Shown here piece by piece: positions 11,945 through 33,651 of a DNA stretch of 33,651 nt (within the stretch, counting starts at the first letter, position 1; every line of letters begins with the position of its first letter). Origin of the DNA: a virus. The notes under the pieces are model-generated. The model saw only the letters and a program-made list of their open reading frames with translations, made no database searches and had not been told where the DNA came from. The translations under genes and the position numbers were made by a program. The stretch covers positions 1-33,651 of the IMG/VR virus record IMGVR_UViG_3300007351_000041. One strand, written 5' to 3'.

Positions 11945-12730
11945 ATGCCAATAATAATTAAAGTATGTGAGTTTTGCTCTGTATTATTTAATTGTCACAA
12001 TCCTAAACGTAGATTTTGCGGTCTCAAATGCAGCTCTAAATATTCAGGAAGTTTGAAAAAAGGTAAAAAGCTATCCCAAAAACATAGAGAACGTCTTAGT
12101 GTTTCTGCTAAACGTAGGAATAAATGGGTTGGAAAGGATAATCCTAATTACCAAAATAAAACGTTGAGTAGGGAGGATGTGTATAATAGATGGAAAAAGT
12201 CTATGAAAATAAGGGGCCAGCCTTGGGGAGAAAAAGAACGCAAGGAACATTCTGAAAGAATGTTAGGACCAACAAATGGAATGAGAGGAAAATCTCATAC
12301 AGATAAATACAAAAGAAATATGTCTGAATTAAAAATTCAACAATATAAGGATGGAATTGTTAAATTCAGATCTAGTCATTCTTCAAAAGCAGAATTAGAA
12401 GTAGGAGAACTATTAAATAGTTGGGGACTAGCTCCTGTTCCCCAGTTTCAAATTAGAGGATTTACATACTTTTACGACTTTTACATTCCATCTTTAAATC
12501 TAATATTGGAATTTAATGGTGATTATTGGCATGCAAACCCAAATAAATACAAGTCTGGAACTTTAATCAAATTTATGAATCAAGATTCTGTATTAGTGGA
12601 TGAAGTTTGGGAAAGAGATTCAATTAAAACAAAAACAGCTTTGGATAATGGATTTAAAATAGTTGTGTTGTGGGAGAATGAATTCATGTTAAATGGTGAG
12701 AAGGCGTTGAGGGGATTGTTAAAAATATGA
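11945..12730 (+). CDS. Free-standing homing endonuclease, Vsr-like nuclease domain (copy 1)
   Basis: A 261-residue protein. The N-terminal zinc finger uses C8, C11, C25 and C29. NUMOD3-like DNA-binding repeats follow ('LKKGKKLSQKHRERLSVSA', then 'GMRGKSHTDKYKRNMSE' near 112-128). The C-terminal nuclease (about 145-261) has 'FYDFYIPSLNLILEFNGDYW', which places Asp178 and Glu189 as in Vsr/PD-(D/E)XK enzymes, with 'RDSIKTKTALDNGFKIVVLW' as the following helix and strand. It is wedged between the phosphoesterase (0-base gap) and the HAD gene (4-base overlap). Homing endonucleases cut an allele lacking them and spread by repair. It differs from the other three endonucleases in this window in the nuclease domain. 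Confidence 0.82.
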   Translation: MPIIIKVCEFCSVLFNCHNPKRRFCGLKCSSKYSGSLKKGKKLSQKHRERLSVSAKRRNKWVGKDNPNYQNKTLSREDVYNRWKKSMKIRGQPWGEKERKEHSERMLGPTNGMRGKSHTDKYKRNMSELKIQQYKDGIVKFRSSHSSKAELEVGELLNSWGLAPVPQFQIRGFTYFYDFYIPSLNLILEFNGDYWHANPNKYKSGTLIKFMNQDSVLVDEVWERDSIKTKTALDNGFKIVVLWENEFMLNGEKALRGLLKI

Positions 12731-16023: not shown

Positions 16024-16113
16024 ATGTATTTGTTGAATAATTTGATTTTTGAAAGGCGACTGGAGGAGTTGAATATTCCAGTTTATAGAAAATGGCAGAA
16101 GATAACAGTTTAA
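16024..16113 (+). CDS. 29-residue leader peptide overlapping the terminase start
   Basis: ATG 16024 is preceded by a very strong ribosome-binding site (AAAGGAGGAGG, 16007-16017). The ORF encodes 29 residues beginning MYLLNNLIFERRLEELNIPV and ends at TAA 16111-16113, overlapping the large-terminase start (16092) by 22 bases in another frame. The terminase ATG itself has no ribosome-binding site, and TAG at 16086 blocks any earlier in-frame start. This is the geometry of a leader ORF used for translational coupling. Peptide function unknown. Confidence 0.5.
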   Translation: MYLLNNLIFERRLEELNIPVYRKWQKITV

Positions 16114-18113
16114 ATCCAAAAGAAAACGATTTACGTCAGGCAGCAGCGCAAGAACTTCTTAGAAGACAAAAAGCACGTACAAATCTTATTGATTTTACCC
16201 GCTATACGTTTCCCACTTATATAGCGGAACCAGCTCACGAATTAATTGCCAGTAAACTAGATGATGTCATCAACGGTCGTATAAAACGTTTGATGATTTC
16301 GATCCCCCCACAACACGGAAAATCAGAGCTCGCATCAGTTAGAATGCCGGCGTTTTGGCTTGGTAAAAGACCAGATGATCCTATAATTTTATGTTCTTAT
16401 GGTGCTAGTTTAGCTGAATCTAAATCTAGACAAGCTAGACAAGTTGTAGAATCAAGAGAATATAATCTTTTATTTCAAGGCGCTAGTACCAGAAAAGACA
16501 GTAGAAGTATATCTGAGTGGCAAATTAATCAAGGAAGAGGTTATTTAGTAGCAGCTGGTGTTTCTGGTCCAATTACTGGAAAAGGTTGTATGTTGGGTAT
16601 TATTGATGACCCTTTGAAAGATTGGCAAGAAGCACAATCTCAAACTATTCGAGATGCATGCTGGGATTGGTATAGAACTACATTTCTTACTCGTGTGTGG
16701 GAAGCTGGAGCCATTATTGTGATTCAAACAAGATGGCATGAAGATGATTTAGCTGGTAGATTGATAAAAGAACAGCCTGGTAAGTGGGAAGTTTTGCGGC
16801 TTCCAGCCATTGCCGAAACTCAAAATGAGCGAGATGAAAATGATGAATTTTTAGGTCTTTCAAGAGGTAATGTAGATCCATTAGGTAGATCTCCTGGTGA
16901 TCCTCTTTGTCCAAGACGGTATAGTTTAGAAGCGTTAGAATCACTTCGTAATGCTGTAGGTCCTAGTGGTTTTGCTGCATTATATCAAGGTGTCCCCAGA
17001 GCTACTGAAGGTAATCAATTTCATAGAAATTGGTTTCAATTAACAGAATCTGTACCTTATGAAGCTAAAAGAGTAAGAGCTTGGGATAAAGCTGGTACTA
17101 AAGGTGAAGGTGACTATACTGTTGGTGCACTAGTTGCTATGCATGAAGGAAAGTTTTATGTAGAGGATATCGTTCGAGGAAGGTGGCTTGCTGGTGAGCG
17201 CGATAAAATAATGCGCACCACTGCGGAACAAGATGCTACTAGGTATAAAAACAAAGTAGTAATATGGGTTGAGCAAGAACCAGGTTCTGGCGGTAAAGAT
17301 AGTGCTCAAAGTTCTATTCAACTCCTTGCTGGTTTTCCTGTATATGTTGATAAAGTATCTGGTCCTAAAGAAGTTAGAGCTAATCCATTTGCCGCGCAGG
17401 GGTTTGCTATGAATGTATATATGAAAAGAGGACCATGGAATACTGATTTGTTGAATGAATTTTTAGCGTTTCCAAATGGTAAACATGATGACATAGTAGA
17501 TGCTGTTTGTATGGCGTTTAATAAGTTAGCCATTGGAGTTGGTTTGACCCCAACAGTTAGGGTATATGGATTAAAGACAGGCGGTTTGAACCTTGGCGCT
17601 AAGATTCCAAAAAAACAAATTAGAATAGCTGTTTGTAGTAAAGAAGAATTGGAATTTTTACATTTAGATCAAGAGTGTGTTCTTATATCAATAGTTGATC
17701 CTAACACAACTCATACAGTTCCCCCACATAGATGTGAAAGAATGTTAGGCAGAATAGAACTATCATTTGCTGATATAGATCCAAATTCCAATGAGTGTAC
17801 AGATTGGAGTAAAGAAATAGAACCTTGGGGACAAACTGCTGAAGAATTAATGATGAGTCGTGAACAAGCTAGGAAAATGTGGGGTTTTATTTTGAAGAAA
17901 AGAGATGTACCTCCCATAACTTATATTATTCAAGATAATGGAAATGGGGATAGAAGAGCATTAAGTATGGCATTAGGAATCTCAGATGGATTGGGATTTG
18001 TAAAAGGTAAAGCTGTATATTTGGTGAATAATCCAGATTTCATTTGTGAGGAAGAACCATCAAATAAGCATATATATCAATTGTGTAAATCTACTAGATA
18101 CATGGTAATTTGA
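16092..18113 (+). CDS. Large terminase subunit fused to a degenerate tyrosine-phosphatase-like domain
   Basis: 673 residues. The ATPase has Walker A 'IPPQHGKSE' (71-79), 'IILCSYGASLAESKSRQ' as the adenine/coupling region, and Walker B 'MLGIIDDP' (Asp172, Asp173). The nuclease has Asp332 ('AWDKAG'), Glu394/396 and the end motif 'HDDIVDA' (465-471). This motor packages DNA into proheads and cuts concatemers. Residues about 509-670 are an extra domain. 'IRIAVCSKEELEFL', 'VLISIVDPN', 'IELSFADIDP', 'SREQARKMWGFILKKRD' and 'TYIIQDNGNGDRRALSMALG' follow in order the layout of small tyrosine/dual-specificity phosphatases. In that layout the active site 'HC..G.SRS' becomes Q-D-N-G-N-G-D-R-R: the Cys is Asp615 while Arg621 remains. 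The domain should therefore be catalytically dead and perhaps binding. The start is discussed under the leader ORF. Confidence 0.92.
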   Translation: MAEDNSLNPKENDLRQAAAQELLRRQKARTNLIDFTRYTFPTYIAEPAHELIASKLDDVINGRIKRLMISIPPQHGKSELASVRMPAFWLGKRPDDPIILCSYGASLAESKSRQARQVVESREYNLLFQGASTRKDSRSISEWQINQGRGYLVAAGVSGPITGKGCMLGIIDDPLKDWQEAQSQTIRDACWDWYRTTFLTRVWEAGAIIVIQTRWHEDDLAGRLIKEQPGKWEVLRLPAIAETQNERDENDEFLGLSRGNVDPLGRSPGDPLCPRRYSLEALESLRNAVGPSGFAALYQGVPRATEGNQFHRNWFQLTESVPYEAKRVRAWDKAGTKGEGDYTVGALVAMHEGKFYVEDIVRGRWLAGERDKIMRTTAEQDATRYKNKVVIWVEQEPGSGGKDSAQSSIQLLAGFPVYVDKVSGPKEVRANPFAAQGFAMNVYMKRGPWNTDLLNEFLAFPNGKHDDIVDAVCMAFNKLAIGVGLTPTVRVYGLKTGGLNLGAKIPKKQIRIAVCSKEELEFLHLDQECVLISIVDPNTTHTVPPHRCERMLGRIELSFADIDPNSNECTDWSKEIEPWGQTAEELMMSREQARKMWGFILKKRDVPPITYIIQDNGNGDRRALSMALGISDGLGFVKGKAVYLVNNPDFICEEEPSNKHIYQLCKSTRYMVI

Positions 18114-18121
18114 GGTGGAAT

Positions 18122-18814
18122 ATGTCTGAGTCTATGTTAGCGTCTGATTTGTTTGCTAAATCTCAAGGCAGTGTTAATAATGGGATTCAAAATTGTCATT
18201 GGTGTTCTGCAGCATGTGATATGACTTGGAGACATGACGATCCTCCTCCAATTCCATTTTTGAAAAATAAAAATCTAGCCAGATGTCCTGCTAATTCATT
18301 TATGTGTGTTGGGTGTTGGTTATGGCGAAGATCTAGAGTGACTGTATTCTTTCTAGATAATTCATATAAAGATAGTCAAACAGCAGCAAATCATTCTTGG
18401 TGGATAACTGACAGTGATGCCAAGGTAATAACACCCGATTGTCAAAAGTTATTGCAAGCAACTTTGTTAAAACCACCAAATAGATTTGTTCTTAGTTTGA
18501 AAACAGATCCTGTCATTCCTAATCATTTACATCTTGCTATTGCTAATGATGTTTCTATTATTGAAGCAAACACACCATTGATGTTTTCTTTCAATAATAT
18601 TGTTAGTGAATATACAGTGTATGATTTAGAAACAGCATTAAAAGATAAAGATGCGGTACGAACTCCTGGCGTTAGATTATTATTGAGTTACTTTACTCCA
18701 TGGGAGTATCCTGCTATGGATAAGAAACGTACTGCTGGAAAACCGCCCGAGATTCAGTTGTCTGCCACCACCAAGAAAATAATCACAACGTCTGGTAATA
18801 CTGCTCAAACATAA
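18122..18814 (+). CDS. Zinc-finger protein resembling Csf1 (type IV CRISPR-associated), role unknown
   Basis: 230 residues from ATG 18122, with GAGGTGG just upstream. The N-terminal zinc-binding part has CHWC (25-28), C32, C55 and CVGC (62-65), then 'HSWWITD'. The middle part 'LLKPPNRFVLSLKTD' followed by 'NHLHLAIANDVSI' recalls the Csf1 layout of zinc finger then 'LL.PP..PFV.S....... H'. This is a remembered resemblance and not a confirmed homology. No other Cas gene or repeat array is present. Residues 208-225 (PPEIQLSATTKKIITTSG) reappear in changed form at the C-terminus of the next gene. It lies directly after the terminase, so a packaging or DNA-binding role is an equally good guess. 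Confidence 0.6.
   Translation: MSESMLASDLFAKSQGSVNNGIQNCHWCSAACDMTWRHDDPPPIPFLKNKNLARCPANSFMCVGCWLWRRSRVTVFFLDNSYKDSQTAANHSWWITDSDAKVITPDCQKLLQATLLKPPNRFVLSLKTDPVIPNHLHLAIANDVSIIEANTPLMFSFNNIVSEYTVYDLETALKDKDAVRTPGVRLLLSYFTPWEYPAMDKKRTAGKPPEIQLSATTKKIITTSGNTAQT
18743..18796 (+). repeat. Tail duplication, copy A (in the zinc-finger gene)
   Basis: Eighteen codons encoding PPEIQLSATTKKIITTSG at the end of the 230-residue protein. Twelve of 18 residues match copy B at 19682-19735; the DNA has diverged more. The two copies flank the body of the homing endonuclease gene. Confidence 0.72.
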
Positions 18815-18817
18815 ATT

Positions 18818-19756
18818 ATGAATAAAAGTAAAAATTTCTTCAGAAATTGTCCCAATCCAGATAATAATTTTAACTGTAAGAATCGGATAGGACATATTTC
18901 GGAGAAAGGGATGATCTATGCTGATCAAAATAAGAGAAAATGTTCTAGTTGTAAAATGTTTAAAAATGACAAGGTTATTCAAAGTAAAAATGTTTTAAAT
19001 AAATTGTATTTGAGAAAATGTCCAAACGTAAATGGCAATCCAAACTGTTTGTTATTATTGAGTTACATATCTGAAAATAATATGTGGGTGGCTGAAGAGA
19101 TGGGAATTTTGTGTACAAGTTGTACACAAAAAAGAAATGGTAATACTAAAGGAGAAAACAATCCATTTTATGGCAAAACACATAATGAGGAAACAAGGAA
19201 TAGAATGTCTGTATTAAAGAAAAAATGTATTGTGGATGGAAGATTTGGTTTTGGGACAAATGGAGGTATATGTGGAGTACATATTTCTAGTGAGCTTCCT
19301 TTTTACAGCAGTTGTGAATTGAATTTCATATTAAACTATGAAGATCGCAAAAATTTAGTAAGAGCTGATGTTGGGATAGAACGCATGCCTATACCTTATG
19401 GTGACACAACATATCTTCCGGACTTTAAATCTAAAGACAAAGTTCCCAATGTAATTTACGAAATAAAAGAGACAGGTGTTAAAGTAAAGAAAAAGTGGAA
19501 GACGATTAAGGAAAAGCTTGTTTGTGCTGTAAACTGGTGTAAGGATCAATCAATGATTATAAAATTGGTTGAAATGCCAACTCTTAGCAAAACAAGAGTC
19601 GTTTTTCCGTTATGTAGATCTGGAGTAATATCCCTTAGAGGTAAATGGAAGAAACAATATGATGAATGGTTAAAGAATCAACCCCCCGAAGTGATGTTAT
19701 CTCAGACAACTAAAAAAGTAATTCAAATGTCTGGTGTCCCCAATGAAAAAGCTTGA
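18818..19756 (+). CDS. Free-standing homing endonuclease (copy 2), fused to a target-gene tail
   Basis: 312 residues. Two related N-terminal zinc modules: C11/C20/C42/C45 ('CPNPDNNFNC') and C68/C77/C99/C102. A NUMOD3 repeat follows ('ENNPFYGKTHNEETRNRMS', 113-131), then a PD-(D/E)XK-type nuclease with Asp202 ('LPDFKS') and Glu215/Lys217 ('YEIKE'). Residues 289-306 (PPEVMLSQTTKKVIQMSG) are not part of the enzyme but a copy of the tail of the preceding gene. The stop overlaps the next gene by 14 bases. The reading is that the enzyme gene inserted just before the last codons of the upstream gene, supplying a substitute tail and keeping the old one in frame. The opening shares a 17-base identity with copy 3 (18848-18864 and 27349-27365). 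Confidence 0.8.
   Translation: MNKSKNFFRNCPNPDNNFNCKNRIGHISEKGMIYADQNKRKCSSCKMFKNDKVIQSKNVLNKLYLRKCPNVNGNPNCLLLLSYISENNMWVAEEMGILCTSCTQKRNGNTKGENNPFYGKTHNEETRNRMSVLKKKCIVDGRFGFGTNGGICGVHISSELPFYSSCELNFILNYEDRKNLVRADVGIERMPIPYGDTTYLPDFKSKDKVPNVIYEIKETGVKVKKKWKTIKEKLVCAVNWCKDQSMIIKLVEMPTLSKTRVVFPLCRSGVISLRGKWKKQYDEWLKNQPPEVMLSQTTKKVIQMSGVPNEKA
19682..19735 (+). repeat. Tail duplication, copy B (in the homing endonuclease gene)
   Basis: Eighteen codons encoding PPEVMLSQTTKKVIQMSG, homologous to copy A at 18743-18796. This copy runs on into the overlap with the gene at 19743, which suggests that it is the original 3' end of the interrupted gene. Confidence 0.72.
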
Positions 19757-20000
19757 AATTAGATGGGTTAATTGTGCTGAGTGCGACCAAGAAGTATTGG
19801 GTGAATCAATGCAGGATTGGTACGATTCTTTAGATTTGATAGAAAAAGCAAATCATAGAATAGTTGTAGGTAGAATACACGGAAGACCTTACTGTAACAT
19901 ATGTTGCGGAGATGAGGAAATAGATGTTGGGTCAATAATAAGGAAGAATAGGAATTGGGAAGAAATGGAAGATTCTTCTGATCCAGAAGAAGAGATTTAA
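19743..20000 (+). CDS. 85-residue protein with two cysteine pairs
   Basis: Read from ATG 19743, overlapping the endonuclease stop by 14 bases; an in-frame GTG at 19734 is an alternative. CAEC (about residues 10-13) and CNIC (about 51-54) are spaced 40 residues apart with 'HGRPYCNICC', a zinc-finger-like layout. The C-terminus is very acidic. A terminator-like hairpin lies 67 bases downstream. Function unknown. Confidence 0.52.
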   Translation: MKKLEIRWVNCAECDQEVLGESMQDWYDSLDLIEKANHRIVVGRIHGRPYCNICCGDEEIDVGSIIRKNRNWEEMEDSSDPEEEI

Positions 20001-20140: not shown

Positions 20141-21886
20141 TTGGGTAGACTTGCAAATCTAATGAAGTCAGGAATAACAACTCAAAGGTATCTTGGGGTT
20201 GGTCAAAACCCACGTACGCTTCGTTCAGAAGTTGAGTTAGGCAGATCCCGTTGGCGTGAAGCATTTCATAACAAAGAAGAACCAAATAGAGAAACTCCTA
20301 AAGTAATACCTGGTGGATCTTGGGGTAGATCTTCATTATCCACGGATGCCAGTGTTCGTAGATTAGTGGAGGCAATGAGATCGCAAGCTCCCGGAGGTTG
20401 GAGCGACAACCGCTGGGAGCAATCACAACACTTCGTTGGTATTACATATGCTGCCATTCATAGAATTGGCGAGCAGATGGCACAATCTGAATTTCAAGTG
20501 TATGTTAAAGATGATAATCATCAAGATGGTAAAAGACCCGTTAAAAGAGGAGAGCCTGGTTGGGATTTAATTAAGTTGTTGGAAAAACCCAATCATGATG
20601 ATACGTTTGGTGAGATGTTATATAAGATAAATTTACAAATGGATTTAACTGGAATGTCATTAACTTGGATGGTTCCTAACGTTATGGGAATGCCAATGGA
20701 ATTGTATTCAATTCCAACTTCTATAGCTATTCCTCAACCAGCTATCAATCCAGATTATCCTGATGGATATTATAGAATCCAACCAGTATATCCATATGGA
20801 CCATTCTCTTCTTATCCTACACCTGCATCAGCTGTTGGTGCTCCAATTCCAGCACAGTGGATGCTAAGAATTAAATATCCGCATCCAATATTACCATATG
20901 ATGGATATTCTCCTCAAACAGCTATGAGGCTTCATCTTGATGAGATCGAGCAGATGGATAGAAGCCGTTGGTATAATATGAAGAGAGGTATTAGTCCTTC
21001 TGCAGTTCTTCAATTTTCAAAAGATAATGCCCAACCATTACCAGAAGAAGAAATAGCTCGTATTAGAGCAGAAATGGAAAATACATTCCAAGGTCCAGAA
21101 AATGCAGGACAATTTTATGTCGCAACGCCAGGTGCTGAGTTACAACCCTGGGGAAATAAACCCATTGATATGGATTACCAGAGTGGATGGGATCAATTGG
21201 TTTCATTCGTACTGGGCGCAGGTTTTGGCATTACTAAACCAGCTGCTGGTATGATCGAAGATTCTAGTTATTCCACTTTGTTTGCAACATTAAAACAATT
21301 ACATCTTATTACTATTGGTCCTAAATGTAATAGAATTGCTTCTAAATTTACTCGTCATCTTGCTCCGTTTTATGGTGATGATTTAATTGTTGAAATAAAA
21401 GCTCAACGAATTGATGACCATGAAGTACTTTCAGGCAAGCTTTCTCAACTGGCTGGCAATAGGGCAATGACAATTAATGAGCTTCGTAAGGCATTAGATT
21501 GGCCAATGACTGATGAAGAGTGGGGTAAAGAAAGAGTTGGTGAGCCACCTGCGCCTCCAGGTATGGAAGGAATGCCACCAGGTGGTGGAGGAATGGGTGG
21601 ATTAGAAGCTATGATGGGTGGTGGAATGCCAGGTATGGAAGGTGGTAATCCAGAAGAAATGGCTGCTCAAGGCGGAGAAGTTGATGCTCTAGGTGGAATG
21701 CCATTACCTCCTGATCTTGATGAAGAACCAACTGAAGTTACTGAATCAAGACCATTAGCTGGTAAGCTCGGACTTGGTGCATTAGGGCCGCGTAAGAGAT
21801 TCGATACTGAAGTGGTTGATATTAAAAAGAAACTTAGGGCTCGTTACAAGAAATTAGCCAAAATTAGTTCTAACGGAGTACATTAA
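20141..21886 (+). CDS. Portal protein
   Basis: 581 residues from TTG 20141. Two ribosome-binding motifs precede it: GGAGGAGGAGG (20115-20125) and GGTGAG (20131-20136); the second gives normal spacing to the TTG. The body matches HK97-type portals. A clip/stem region 'ITYAAIHRIGEQMAQSEFQV' is followed by 'LIKLLEKPN', a 'GISPSAVLQFSKDN' segment, and 'GITKPAAGMIEDSSYSTLFA' near the crown. The portal ring is the prohead vertex through which the terminase pumps DNA. The C-terminal 110 residues are Gly/Met/Pro-rich with 'PPGMEGMPPGGGGMGG', then a basic end. No head protease or capsid gene follows in the usual place. Confidence 0.88.
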   Translation: MGRLANLMKSGITTQRYLGVGQNPRTLRSEVELGRSRWREAFHNKEEPNRETPKVIPGGSWGRSSLSTDASVRRLVEAMRSQAPGGWSDNRWEQSQHFVGITYAAIHRIGEQMAQSEFQVYVKDDNHQDGKRPVKRGEPGWDLIKLLEKPNHDDTFGEMLYKINLQMDLTGMSLTWMVPNVMGMPMELYSIPTSIAIPQPAINPDYPDGYYRIQPVYPYGPFSSYPTPASAVGAPIPAQWMLRIKYPHPILPYDGYSPQTAMRLHLDEIEQMDRSRWYNMKRGISPSAVLQFSKDNAQPLPEEEIARIRAEMENTFQGPENAGQFYVATPGAELQPWGNKPIDMDYQSGWDQLVSFVLGAGFGITKPAAGMIEDSSYSTLFATLKQLHLITIGPKCNRIASKFTRHLAPFYGDDLIVEIKAQRIDDHEVLSGKLSQLAGNRAMTINELRKALDWPMTDEEWGKERVGEPPAPPGMEGMPPGGGGMGGLEAMMGGGMPGMEGGNPEEMAAQGGEVDALGGMPLPPDLDEEPTEVTESRPLAGKLGLGALGPRKRFDTEVVDIKKKLRARYKKLAKISSNGVH

Positions 21887-27318: not shown

Positions 27319-28251
27319 ATGGCTAAGAATTATTTGTTTTGTAGAAAATGTCCCAATCCAGATAACAATGAAAATTGTAAACTTTTAATTGGTTATAAAT
27401 ACGAAAATAAAATGTGGGATGCTGAGGAAAGACAAACTTTTTGTAAGAGTTGTACATTTCTGGGAAACAGGAACCCATTCTTTGGCAAGAATCACACCGA
27501 AGAAACTAAAGAAGCAATGTCTAAAATTCGTATTGATCTTTGGGAATCTGGTGTGTTTGATACACCTGAAGTTAGATTTAATATGAGTCAGTCTCATATT
27601 GGAAATAAATCTACTTCTGGTCAAGAATTATCCATAAGGCGAAGATTTGCTATTAGGAAAAGAATGATGGGTGAAAATAATCACTTTTATGGTAAAAACC
27701 ACACTCATGAATCAAGGAAAAAGATTTCTAAATCTAGAGAAGGAAAATATTTTGGTGAGAATAATCCTTTTTATGGTAGAAAACACTTAGAAGAGACTAA
27801 AGAATTATGTAGAGAAGGAGCATTAAAAAGCAAAGGATCTGGTCATGGAATAAGTGGTAAATATAATGGGCTACATTTTAGATCTACATGTGAGTTGTTG
27901 TTTTTAAAACAAAACTACACCAACACCATGGTTTCGGCAGAGGCAAAAGGATTCAGGTGTGAGTATATAGATTCTACTGGAAAATTAAGATATCATTATC
28001 CCGATTTTGTAGATGGAAATGTAGTTTATGAGATCAAACCATTTGGATGGGAAAGAGATTCAAGGTGTGTTGATGTACCATTGAAAAGAAAAGCAGCTGA
28101 AAAAATAATTACTGATAAAGGATTTAAATATGTTTTTATTGAAATGAAATGTATTTCCAAGTCTGAGGTGTTTGCTTTATTCGCGCAAGGTAAAATTGAT
28201 CTGGACACCAAGTGGAAAAAACAGTATTATGAAAAACTTGGAGTTTATTAA
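27319..28251 (+). CDS. Free-standing homing endonuclease (copy 3)
   Basis: 310 residues. The zinc module C11/C20/C42/C45 is nearly the same as in copy 2. Three NUMOD3-like repeats follow: 'RNPFFGKNHTEETKEAMSK', 'ENNHFYGKNHTHESRKKIS', 'ENNPFYGRKHLEETKELC'. The nuclease has 'YHYPDFVDGNVVYEIKPFG' with Asp229, Glu238 and Lys240. It sits 2 bases after the fibre stop, and its own stop overlaps the next start, so it is inserted precisely between two genes. The 'KWKKQY' end is also found in copy 2. Confidence 0.82.
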   Translation: MAKNYLFCRKCPNPDNNENCKLLIGYKYENKMWDAEERQTFCKSCTFLGNRNPFFGKNHTEETKEAMSKIRIDLWESGVFDTPEVRFNMSQSHIGNKSTSGQELSIRRRFAIRKRMMGENNHFYGKNHTHESRKKISKSREGKYFGENNPFYGRKHLEETKELCREGALKSKGSGHGISGKYNGLHFRSTCELLFLKQNYTNTMVSAEAKGFRCEYIDSTGKLRYHYPDFVDGNVVYEIKPFGWERDSRCVDVPLKRKAAEKIITDKGFKYVFIEMKCISKSEVFALFAQGKIDLDTKWKKQYYEKLGVY

Positions 28252-30164: not shown

Positions 30165-31001
30165 ATGGCTGGTGAAATAAAACATTGTGAAAAATGTAAT
30201 TGTGAACATGATGGTTCTTATGGCTCAGGTAGATTTTGCTCTAAACATTGCGCCTATGGTAGAAATGTGAATGGAAATAAGAATCCCATGTATGGTCAGA
30301 CAGTATATGAGATTTGGGTAAATAAGTATGGTAAAGAAGTTGCGAACATAAAATGGAGAAACTGTGTGATTTCTCAAAAGGGTAAGGGAACTGGCCCCAG
30401 GCCTAATCAGTCTGTTAAGGTTTCTGGTTGTTTAAATCCTATGTGGGGTCGTACACATTCTGATGGGGCAAAAGCTGCAATATCCCATAAAAATACAGGC
30501 AGAAAACATTCAATTAAGTCTAACATTCAAAAATCTATATCTGGAAAAAGAGCTTATGCTGAAGGTAGATTTAAGTTTTCCGGAGAGAAAAGATCAATAA
30601 GAGGATATTGGAAAGGATTGTATTATGGAAGTACATCTGAATTGATGAGAATGATGAATCATCCAAATTTATCTTTATTGAAAAGAGGCCCATCGATATC
30701 ATATGAGTGGTTTGATGGTTCTCACCACACATATTTATCAGATTTCTTGAATGTGTTGTCAAACACAATTGAAGAAATAAAATATCCAGGCAAACAACTA
30801 TCTGAGTTAGAGCAACTTAAAGTTGAAGCAGGTAAAAAATATGCAAAAGAGAATGGTTTAAATTATAATGTGTTGTACGAACATTCAATACCCAAGGAAG
30901 AAATGTTTATTTTAAGGAAACATTATATGGTTACTTTAGATTCTAAACATGAAACAGAATATCAAATATGGTTGGAAAGGAGAAACAAACGTGGCTGGTG
31001 A
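30165..31001 (+). CDS. Free-standing homing endonuclease (copy 4), inserted at a gene start
   Basis: 278 residues. Zinc module C8/C11/C25/C29; NUMOD3-like repeats ('GNKNPMYGQTVYEI', 'CLNPMWGRTHSDGAKAAIS'); nuclease 'YLSDFLNVLSNTIEEIKYPG' with Asp193, Glu204 and Lys206, the same layout as copies 2 and 3. Its first five codons (MAGEI) copy the first codons of the downstream gene (VAGEI), and its last codons and stop are read from the second copy of that 13-base repeat. So the endonuclease gene lies between two copies of the target's start region and uses the original start. Confidence 0.82.
   Translation: MAGEIKHCEKCNCEHDGSYGSGRFCSKHCAYGRNVNGNKNPMYGQTVYEIWVNKYGKEVANIKWRNCVISQKGKGTGPRPNQSVKVSGCLNPMWGRTHSDGAKAAISHKNTGRKHSIKSNIQKSISGKRAYAEGRFKFSGEKRSIRGYWKGLYYGSTSELMRMMNHPNLSLLKRGPSISYEWFDGSHHTYLSDFLNVLSNTIEEIKYPGKQLSELEQLKVEAGKKYAKENGLNYNVLYEHSIPKEEMFILRKHYMVTLDSKHETEYQIWLERRNKRGW
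30166..30178 (+). repeat. Insertion-site direct repeat, left copy
   Basis: TGGCTGGTGAAAT is identical to 30992-31004. It is the original 5' end of the interrupted gene and now supplies the start codons of the endonuclease. Confidence 0.75.
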
Positions 31002-31653
31002 AATTGCCGCAGATGCTAGTTCAAGTCTTGTATTATATTCCCAGATTAGAAATAGAACTTCGGGGTTCATATTCAATATAAGTAGTGGACAGTTTGAAAC
31101 ATATTCTAGCGCAAGTGGTAATCAAGCTGCTTATGCCCTTTCTATGAGTGAGCAAGGTAGTTGTGGTCACTATGTGGGAAATGCCCCAAGCACATTACCT
31201 GCTGGTGTGTTTGATATCACATGTCGGCAAAGGGTAAATGCTTGGTATGCTGAAACAGATTCCTTGGTGGCCAACGGGGAACTTCAATGGAATACTTCAG
31301 TTGCAGTGCCATTATCTAATTTACCTGCGAGTGGAGTAATTTCAGAAGTTAGAATGACTCGTGGTGTAATGGTACAGAATTTTGGAATATTTCTTAAATC
31401 AAGTGCCGACCATCTCACCAATTTTACCAGTGGAAATGTTAGCGGTCAGATTGCTAGAGATGGAGGTCTTTTTGGTGCTTTGCAATCAGGTGGTTTTACA
31501 GAGACAGGTCTTGGATCTTACGTTGTTACGCTTACATCGGGCGATTTACTTGCAAACACTGTAAGACTTTATTTTTCTGCAAATGGCATTAGTGGTGGTA
31601 CAAGCGATCCTCTTACTTTATCATTCGTATTACAAAGAAGTTCAGGACAGTAA
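30991..31653 (+). CDS. Probable virion surface or neck protein (220 aa), GTG start
   Basis: Read from GTG 30991, 8 bases after AAGGAG (30977-30982); an in-frame ATG at 30949 is deep inside the endonuclease gene and gives an unrelated N-terminus. The protein is beta-rich, Ser/Gly-rich ('SLVLYSQIRNRTSGFIFNIS', 'GLGSYVVTLTSGDLLANTVR'), with no Cys pattern beyond two single residues. This style is common in phage head-tail or baseplate proteins. The endonuclease upstream has replaced its original start (ATG 30165) with a GTG copy. Confidence 0.6.
   Translation: MAGEIAADASSSLVLYSQIRNRTSGFIFNISSGQFETYSSASGNQAAYALSMSEQGSCGHYVGNAPSTLPAGVFDITCRQRVNAWYAETDSLVANGELQWNTSVAVPLSNLPASGVISEVRMTRGVMVQNFGIFLKSSADHLTNFTSGNVSGQIARDGGLFGALQSGGFTETGLGSYVVTLTSGDLLANTVRLYFSANGISGGTSDPLTLSFVLQRSSGQ
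30992..31004 (+). repeat. Insertion-site direct repeat, right copy
   Basis: TGGCTGGTGAAAT, identical to 30166-30178. It contains the endonuclease stop TGA (30999-31001) and, in another frame, codons 1-5 of the downstream gene. Confidence 0.75.
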
Positions 31654-32196: not shown

Positions 32197-32475
32197 ATGA
32201 AAAATCTGATGAGCCTCCTAGTATGGCAGTTCGTATTGCTCGTACTTTTGGGATTTCTATACGAAATAATTGTGGCTCTGTATATCCTTTCCCTTGCTTC
32301 ACACCAATTGTTCCTGGCAGTAGTATTTTCTACCTTAACTCCCTTCTTCAGTCTCGCTGCCCAACATTGGTTCGTAGAAGCCCCAACTCTATCTCGTAGA
32401 ATTATTCTTACGATGGCCACCGCAGTTGGTTATGGTATTGGTACTTGGGTTTCTTTGTGGATGTTTGGAGCATAA
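32197..32475 (+). CDS. Multi-span membrane protein
   Basis: 92 residues from ATG 32197, with GGAG 8 bases upstream. Two to three hydrophobic segments: about 5-30 ('LLVWQFVLLVLLGFLY'), 33-53 and 68-90. The size would fit a holin, but there is no lysin neighbour in this window. A second, overlapping frame (32184-32399) is a shadow. Codons here are a little richer in C than the neighbours'. Confidence 0.52.
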   Translation: MKNLMSLLVWQFVLLVLLGFLYEIIVALYILSLASHQLFLAVVFSTLTPFFSLAAQHWFVEAPTLSRRIILTMATAVGYGIGTWVSLWMFGA

Positions 32476-32476
32476 T

Positions 32477-33611
32477 ATGCCCACTCAAAACATAATTGGT
32501 GTTGGTAGATCTAGGAAGTCTTTGTTGAATAGAATTAAGGCATTAGAAGATACACCCAAAGAACCTGAAAAGATCGAGCCAGACGTTGAGCCAACACCAC
32601 ATTCAACTCAACAAACATATTCATCTCCACAACCTTATCCTAAAAGAGAACACTATCAACCCCAACAGGCTGTCAGTAAGCCTGTAGTTAAAAAACCAGT
32701 ATTTGAAGCACCAACTGCTCAACCCAAACCTCAACCACCAACTACTAAACCTCCTGTTGAAACTCCGAAAGAACCTGAAACTAGATTCGTTTCTAAGTAT
32801 AAAGAACCTGGCTTAAATATTGAAACTAGGTTGGATACTGATGGTGATTTATATCATGTATTTATTGATGAGGAAGGAAATGAATCTGGAAGTAGATTTT
32901 CTACTCCTGCTCAAGCACAACATGAATTAGATAGAAGAAATCACTATGAAGGGTTATTGTTTGAATCATTATCTCAAAGTCCAAATATGAGAGATTTTGC
33001 GGAAAAAGTTGGTTGGGAGAATGCAGCATTTGCTATCAATAGAGCTGTTGATAGAGGTTTTTTGAAAGCAGCGGACTCTGTTATAAATTATTTGTCTGGT
33101 CAACCAACAGAGAGTAATCTAAATTACAAGTTTACGCCTAAAGGATTGCTAAAATCCAAAATATTGGAAGATATTGTTAAACAGAACAGAGAAGCATTTG
33201 AGTTGTATGAAGCTTTAAAGGAGGGGGAGGATGTTTGGTTTGCTCTATATGATTCATTATTAGAAATGGGACAATCAGAGGCTGCCAAGATATTGAGAGA
33301 TTCATACAGAAAACCAATTTATAAAGCCAGAGAAAACTCATCTGGTACATATGATATTGTAGATGATGATGGAAATGTAATTGAAAGGGATTTAGATAAA
33401 CGCAGAGCTGGATTTCATGTTGCTGGTCTGATGCATAGAAATTTAGATTTTTTAAACTCTGATAGTTTACCTTTTGATTTGTTTTATAACCGTGGTGAAA
33501 GACTTCCAAATTCAGGTTTGTATGTAGGAACTGCTCCTAATGACATAGAATGGGTAGCTCATAATGATAAAGATTATGAGCAAATGGTTGAAGTTTTTGA
33601 TAGAAAATATA
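32477..33611 (+). CDS. Pro-rich protein with basic N-terminal motif (3' truncated)
   Basis: The phage part gives 378 residues from ATG 32477; the gene runs into the adapter, so the end is missing. The N-terminus 'GVGRSRKSLLNRIKALED' matches the basic motif of the proteins at 28511 and 29451. A long P/Q/K-rich linker (about 25-110) follows. 'EALKEGEDVWFALYDSLLEM' then 'GQSEAAKILRD' (about 245-275) is related to the TIGR02996-like segment at 28511. Another segment, about 105-155, is strand-rich. Residues beyond 378 (ending ASCRERV) are translated adapter and should be discarded. Confidence 0.65.
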
Positions 33612-33651
33612 AGATCGGAAGAGCGTCGTGTAGGGAAAGAGTGTAGATCTC
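33612..33651. other. Illumina adapter at the right contig end
   Basis: The last 40 bases begin with AGATCGGAAGAGCGTCGTGT and continue through the known read-through adapter. This is a library artefact in the assembly. It fuses false residues to the last ORF and shows that the contig ends are not natural genome ends. Confidence 0.97.

Follow-up and report, generated by a model that had tools for sequence, protein, structure and literature searches.

A putative homing endonuclease gene in a phage genome probably carries the displaced C-terminal tail of the gene in front of it

The window, by which we mean the whole stretch of DNA that was analysed (33,651 nucleotides), is a phage contig that is binned in a 1.4-Mb assembly. 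Domain searches placed a terminase gene at positions 16092-18113 and a portal gene at 20141-21886, and between these two lie a gene of 230 amino acids, an endonuclease ORF of 312 amino acids and a small gene beginning at position 19743, all on the plus strand. The 230-residue gene (18122..18814), which we read as the invaded target, runs from an ATG at 18122 to a stop codon at 18812-18814; no homologue was found for it, and it is an ORFan of no known family. It is followed by the free-standing endonuclease ORF (18818..19756, stop codon at 19754-19756) and by the next gene (19743..20000), for which the ATG at 19743 was taken as the start and a GTG at 19734 is a possible alternative. Two further observations concern other parts of the contig. 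The terminase large subunit ORF carries a C-terminal extension of about 190 amino acids past the terminase domain, the matches stopping near residue 485. The end of the contig, from 33611 to 33651, reads agatcggaagagcgtcgtgtagggaaagagtgtagatctc, which we take to be Illumina adapter sequence; the last approximately 40 bases are an artefact, and so is the terminal part of the ORF at 32426-33646.

The target gene and the endonuclease ORF finish in similar tails. Copy A (PPEIQLSATTKKIITTSG; 18743..18796, plus strand) is rich in GC at third codon positions (GC3) and lies near the end of the target gene, while copy B (PPEVMLSQTTKKVIQMSG; 19682..19735, plus strand) continues the reading frame of the endonuclease at its end, as part of a fused tail that covers residues 289-312. 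As the first-pass annotation had reported, 12 of the 18 residues are identical, and its positions were right as well; the repeat is ungapped over 18 codons and 36 of the 54 bases agree. That annotation had also let both proteins end at the final SG of the repeat. The tails are located as it described, but five more residues (NTAQT) follow in the target protein and six (VPNEKA) in the endonuclease, and the terminal stretch that holds the repeat is 23 codons long in the target gene and 24 in the endonuclease. The 20 codons upstream of the two copies show no similarity to each other. When the C-termini in the window were compared pairwise (1,275 pairs), A and B gave the highest score (65), the runner-up (49) being the pair formed by the two related endonucleases. 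A six-frame scan of the window gave no further place above an 8/18 match to either tail, and a degenerate DNA pattern of the tail matched the 1.4-Mb assembly at copies A and B alone. The start of the next gene overlaps the reading frame of copy B, as it would that of an uninterrupted target gene. The earlier claim that the copy on the endonuclease still overlaps the downstream gene was borne out, with an overlap of 14 nt for the ATG at 19743, or of 23 nt if the GTG at 19734 is the start.

The endonuclease is made up of a Cys-rich N-terminus, a NUMOD3 motif at residues 111-131 (PF07460, 35.7 bits versus a cut-off of 20.4), a TnsA-like PD-(D/E)XK core and the fused tail. The core residues are E167, D202 and E215-I-K217, and E167, D202, E215 and K217 are invariant in five relatives. 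A Foldseek search with the model of the protein returned TnsA chains as the top matches (probability 1.00, best E 4e-3, low TM-scores); the Pfam TnsA-like match was below its cut-off. On the grounds of NUMOD3 and the nuclease fold, we infer that the ORF is of the free-standing homing endonuclease type, with homing and cutting as putative activities. The model is confident for residues about 151-289, and its pLDDT falls from approximately 90 to 43-49 where the tail starts; the fused tail is predicted to be unstructured.

The closest paralogue in the window (27319..28251, plus strand, 41% identical) was used as a control for the native end of the enzyme. It ends in ...KWKKQYYEKLGVY without a tail, as do a relative in contig C29 (L002), which ends in ...RYEKQYLKWLKTCINQ, and another in contig C1 (L005), which ends in ...KWENQFQSWKNR. 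These three finish in ...W/YxxQYxxWL... at the tail's starting point, and the endonuclease under study reads ...KWKKQYDEWLKNQ, then PPEVMLSQTTKKVIQMSGVPNEKA. A more distant relative at 30165 is likewise without the tail. All four relatives come from the same assembly and finish at the point where the tail would start, and the tail is therefore an addition to the endonuclease. The PPE..TTKK tail, which homologues should share if it formed part of their own domain, is missing from all four, and the view that it lies outside the enzyme's own domain is supported both by these ends and by the drop in pLDDT. With an alignment of the endonuclease, no relatives were found in IMG/VR and genome contigs, and two weak matches outside the assembly were obtained in a sample of the phylum. 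L002 (G000:C29) and L005 (G000:C1), which belong to the same endonuclease family, each sit right at the stop codon of the gene in front of them; local spread of this family seems to be taking place. A fourth endonuclease-like gene of the window (11945-12730), with a weak match to the MTES_1575 REase, fits tightly between genes for a metallophosphatase and a 5'-nucleotidase, and no displaced terminus was detected there.

The age of the two copies was judged from their composition, their divergence and their position. The body of the target gene had a GC3 of 43/207, copy A one of 11/18 and copy B one of 6/18. In the gene body, 18-codon windows had a maximum GC3 of 7 and none of 190 reached 11, and over all genes of the contig 1.9% of such windows reached the value of copy A. 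Since the GC3 outlier is A and not B, copy A looks imported, being foreign to the target gene in its composition, and copy B looks native. In an undisturbed arrangement the tail would be expected to overlap the next gene, and this overlap is present at copy B, not at A. The divergence between A and B is skewed to synonymous sites, and when 18 random differences were simulated, at least 12 identical residues were kept with a probability of only 0.001-0.002. This indicates that both tails diverged mostly under selection at the protein level, in different genomes, and, therefore, import fits better than duplication in place. As the two copies differ by 33%, no donor can be assigned to either of them.

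We searched phages, plasmids, IMG/VR, genome collections and over 370 genomes from the same phylum for relatives of the target and of the next gene (88 amino acids), and no usable ones were found; three matches (E 0.005-0.01) were too weak to be used. No match to the tail was obtained in a degenerate-DNA scan of IMG/VR or with tail peptides against phages, and searches with the terminase and the portal returned distant phages only, which were of no use for finding an empty site. Since no empty-site relative of the window phage was found in the collections searched, the direction of import is deduced from the composition of 18 codons. A single-sequence model of the target protein (pLDDT 33) was too poor for use.

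An independent case, for which empty sites are available, was obtained by comparing the 5' flank with the 3' flank of 37 endonuclease loci, with 800 mismatched pairs as the control. The window locus scored 65 and L013, a locus from IMG/VR, scored 52, versus a maximum of 44 in the 800 mismatched trials. At L013, an HNH/NUMOD3 endonuclease gene (820-1506) follows a GH19-type lysin gene, which ends in ...SELTKKYYNWIK and a stop codon, its tail reading ELTKKYYNWIK. A remnant encoding LTKKYYGWLK and a stop codon is located at 1499-1531, where it overlaps the start codon (ATG, 1519) of the next gene. This remnant is read out of the endonuclease frame and gives the enzyme only its last codons and its stop. 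A perfect repeat of 14 nt is present at the junctions. Five close relatives of the lysin gene (L066-L070, from 80 relatives fetched) are without the endonuclease and have a single ELTKKYYGWLK with its stop codon each, overlapping the same next gene as in L013. The remnant matches these five empty sites in 33/33, 33/33, 33/33, 32/33 and 31/33 nt, whereas the present lysin tail matches them in 23-25/33 nt. Among the empty relatives, the tail is the most conserved stretch of the lysin gene (0/183 windows), in part on account of its overlap with the next gene. As in the window, a recoded tail is followed by an endonuclease and by a native remnant that overlaps the next gene; unlike in the window, the nuclease domain is HNH and the remnant is out of frame instead of being fused in frame. 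As judged from sequence comparison, the empty sites of L013 demonstrate that the exchange of tails is a real process in phages. This is the outcome that the first-pass annotation had predicted for endonuclease-free relatives, here in a different phage and with a different nuclease family.

Across the survey, 34 of the 37 endonuclease loci had no such repeat, nor did 8 T4-like or other phage loci. Since most loci lack it, tail swapping is not a general property of these genes; it is an occasional route. In the window, no repeat passed the flank scan at the endonucleases of 27319 and 11945. Several candidates were discarded. L148 also scored 52, but its repeat is in frame with neither of the neighbouring genes, and a DNA repeat at L038 is located inside its own GIY-YIG ORF; L048/L050 (score 39, p 0.0125) was left as a chance match. 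As L148 was rejected in spite of its score, a value near 50 is no proof by itself, and the case of L013 is therefore built on its empty sites.

A possible mirror image at the 5' end of a gene was observed elsewhere in the window. The second related endonuclease (30165..31001, plus strand, 278 amino acids) begins with ATGGCTGGTGAAAT, which we interpret as a 5' head displaced from the gene behind it (30991..31653, plus strand), the target in this case, whose replacement head would be GTGGCTGGTGAAATT. The 13-mer TGGCTGGTGAAAT occurs in the window at 30166 and 30992 alone, in both cases in phase with the start codon, and this repeat held the second rank in the DNA-level scan. The endonuclease gene may have inserted just past the start of the gene and supplied a new head, the old head having become the start of the enzyme. 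This reading is held more loosely, since the repeat is short and relatives were not found.

For the window locus, we propose that a gene for a NUMOD3 and TnsA-like PD-(D/E)XK endonuclease was inserted in the last 23 codons of the 230-residue gene, between Lys207 (AAA) and Pro208 (CCG/CCC). What came in would have been the recoded tail A, a stop codon and the body of the endonuclease, lacking a stop of its own. The target protein would have stayed complete, now ending in the imported tail A, while tail B would have been pushed 939 bp downstream to become an in-frame C-terminal extension of the endonuclease, supplying its stop codon and keeping the overlap with the next gene. Following the mechanism of intronless homing given in a review on T4-like phages (PMC2988022), the enzyme would recognise the conserved terminus of its target and cut there in phages without the endonuclease, repair by recombination from an endonuclease-bearing phage would copy in the recoded tail together with the enzyme, and the recoding or the interruption would shield the donor from renewed cutting. 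Cutting, its target site, the direction and homing are putative at the window locus. We consider it probable that a tail was imported by the inserted endonuclease and that the old tail was displaced onto the enzyme. The first-pass annotation had proposed that the enzyme gene brought a replacement tail and was fused in frame to the old one. This interpretation is partly supported and likely for the window locus, as GC3 marks A as imported and B as native and the process is also seen at L013; homing activity and the cleavage site stay presumptive.

The same layout would result if the end of the target gene had been doubled in place at the insertion, by a staggered break, microhomology repair or tandem duplication, and had diverged later, with no foreign tail involved; the perfect repeats of 14 nt at L013 and of 13 nt at 30165 could be short duplications of this kind. 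Copy B would then be free of selection as the tail of a nuclease, yet the differences favour synonymous change. Moreover, the compositional outlier is copy A, not B, and at L013 it is the downstream copy that is unchanged from the empty sites and the upstream one that is recoded, and we regard duplication in place as improbable. We think it very unlikely that A is the native tail and that the endonuclease came with B in its own cassette and was inserted after the target gene. The target gene would then have stayed unaltered, as is usual with the free-standing intergenic endonucleases of T4 (PMC2988022), but the related endonucleases are without the tail, A is the outlier in GC3, the overlap with the next gene was kept by B and not by A, and L013 runs the opposite way.

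Slightly less probable again is a function of the tail within the endonuclease itself, for example as a peptide for a partner common to the neighbouring protein, from which the likeness would follow. Copy B is indeed still intact and in frame; however, the tail is missing from the four relatives, is predicted to be unstructured and is present in no other protein of the window. Finally, a self-splicing intron could hold the endonuclease, with splicing joining the gene to tail B and tail A being the read-through version, and excision of positions 18743-19681 (939 bp, divisible by 3) would leave an open frame that ends in tail B. Nevertheless, outside the endonuclease frame this segment contains just the 72 nt of tail A plus 3 nt, which is too little for a group I or group II core, and there was no Rfam match at the gathering score or at E values up to 1. 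For want of space and of a match to an RNA family, an intron is excluded for practical purposes.

Import of a tail with displacement of the old one is a process that has been described in fungal mitochondria. Mobile endonuclease ORFs (mORFs) in atp6 of Allomyces macrogynus and in atp6, atp9, cox2 and nad3 of Glomus sp. replaced the C-terminus of the gene and left the native one downstream, where it is closest to uninterrupted relatives (PMC3630166). As with the mORFs, the window endonuclease lies close to the 3' terminus of another gene and is flanked by two divergent C-termini of its target, the upstream one probably foreign and the downstream one probably the displaced native end. The reading frame of the upstream copy A is open and in phase with the target gene, the end of the product being predicted. 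Some mORFs are in phase with the gene, as the window endonuclease is with copy B. In contrast, the mORFs code for LAGLIDADG or GIY-YIG enzymes, belong to mitochondria, have mostly longer tails and have hybrid transcripts that were shown to be expressed, whereas the window locus has a TnsA-like PD-(D/E)XK enzyme in a phage, a tail of 18-24 codons on the C-terminus of the enzyme and an overlap with the next gene. The window locus is a phage version of the process already known from fungal mitochondria. With the seg and mob genes of T4-like phages it shares an intron-less endonuclease gene packed between phage genes. In the available parts of the T4 review, the free-standing seg and mob genes are described as intergenic, the in-gene insertions of mobE in nrdA of Aeh1 and of mobA in gene 60 of T4 split the gene into two polypeptides, and spread is thought to proceed via double-strand-break repair with co-conversion of the flanks (PMC2988022). 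A replaced or displaced tail is mentioned neither there nor in the available parts of later phage papers. Tail replacement is likely to be absent from the phage literature as far as these sources extend.

In a wider sense, it is conceivable, although we are slightly more inclined to doubt it than to accept it, that phage endonucleases of several nuclease families recurrently enter coding ends, including those of overlapping genes without a neutral gap, carrying a recoded 3' tail (the window locus and L013) or 5' head (30165) and taking their own stop or start from the terminus that was displaced. Endonuclease genes of phages are usually pictured as lying between genes or as breaking a gene into two subunits. 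The swapping of ends would be a third route, which would explain cost-free entry into tightly packed or overlapping genes and why conserved gene ends are good targets. L013 with its five empty-site relatives is a good experimental system in which the process can be tested directly. The two tails would leave a readable record of which copy is old, and there is a warning in this, since the C-terminus of a phage protein that adjoins an endonuclease may be foreign. Exchange of this kind would also explain how small protein-coding pieces move between phages.
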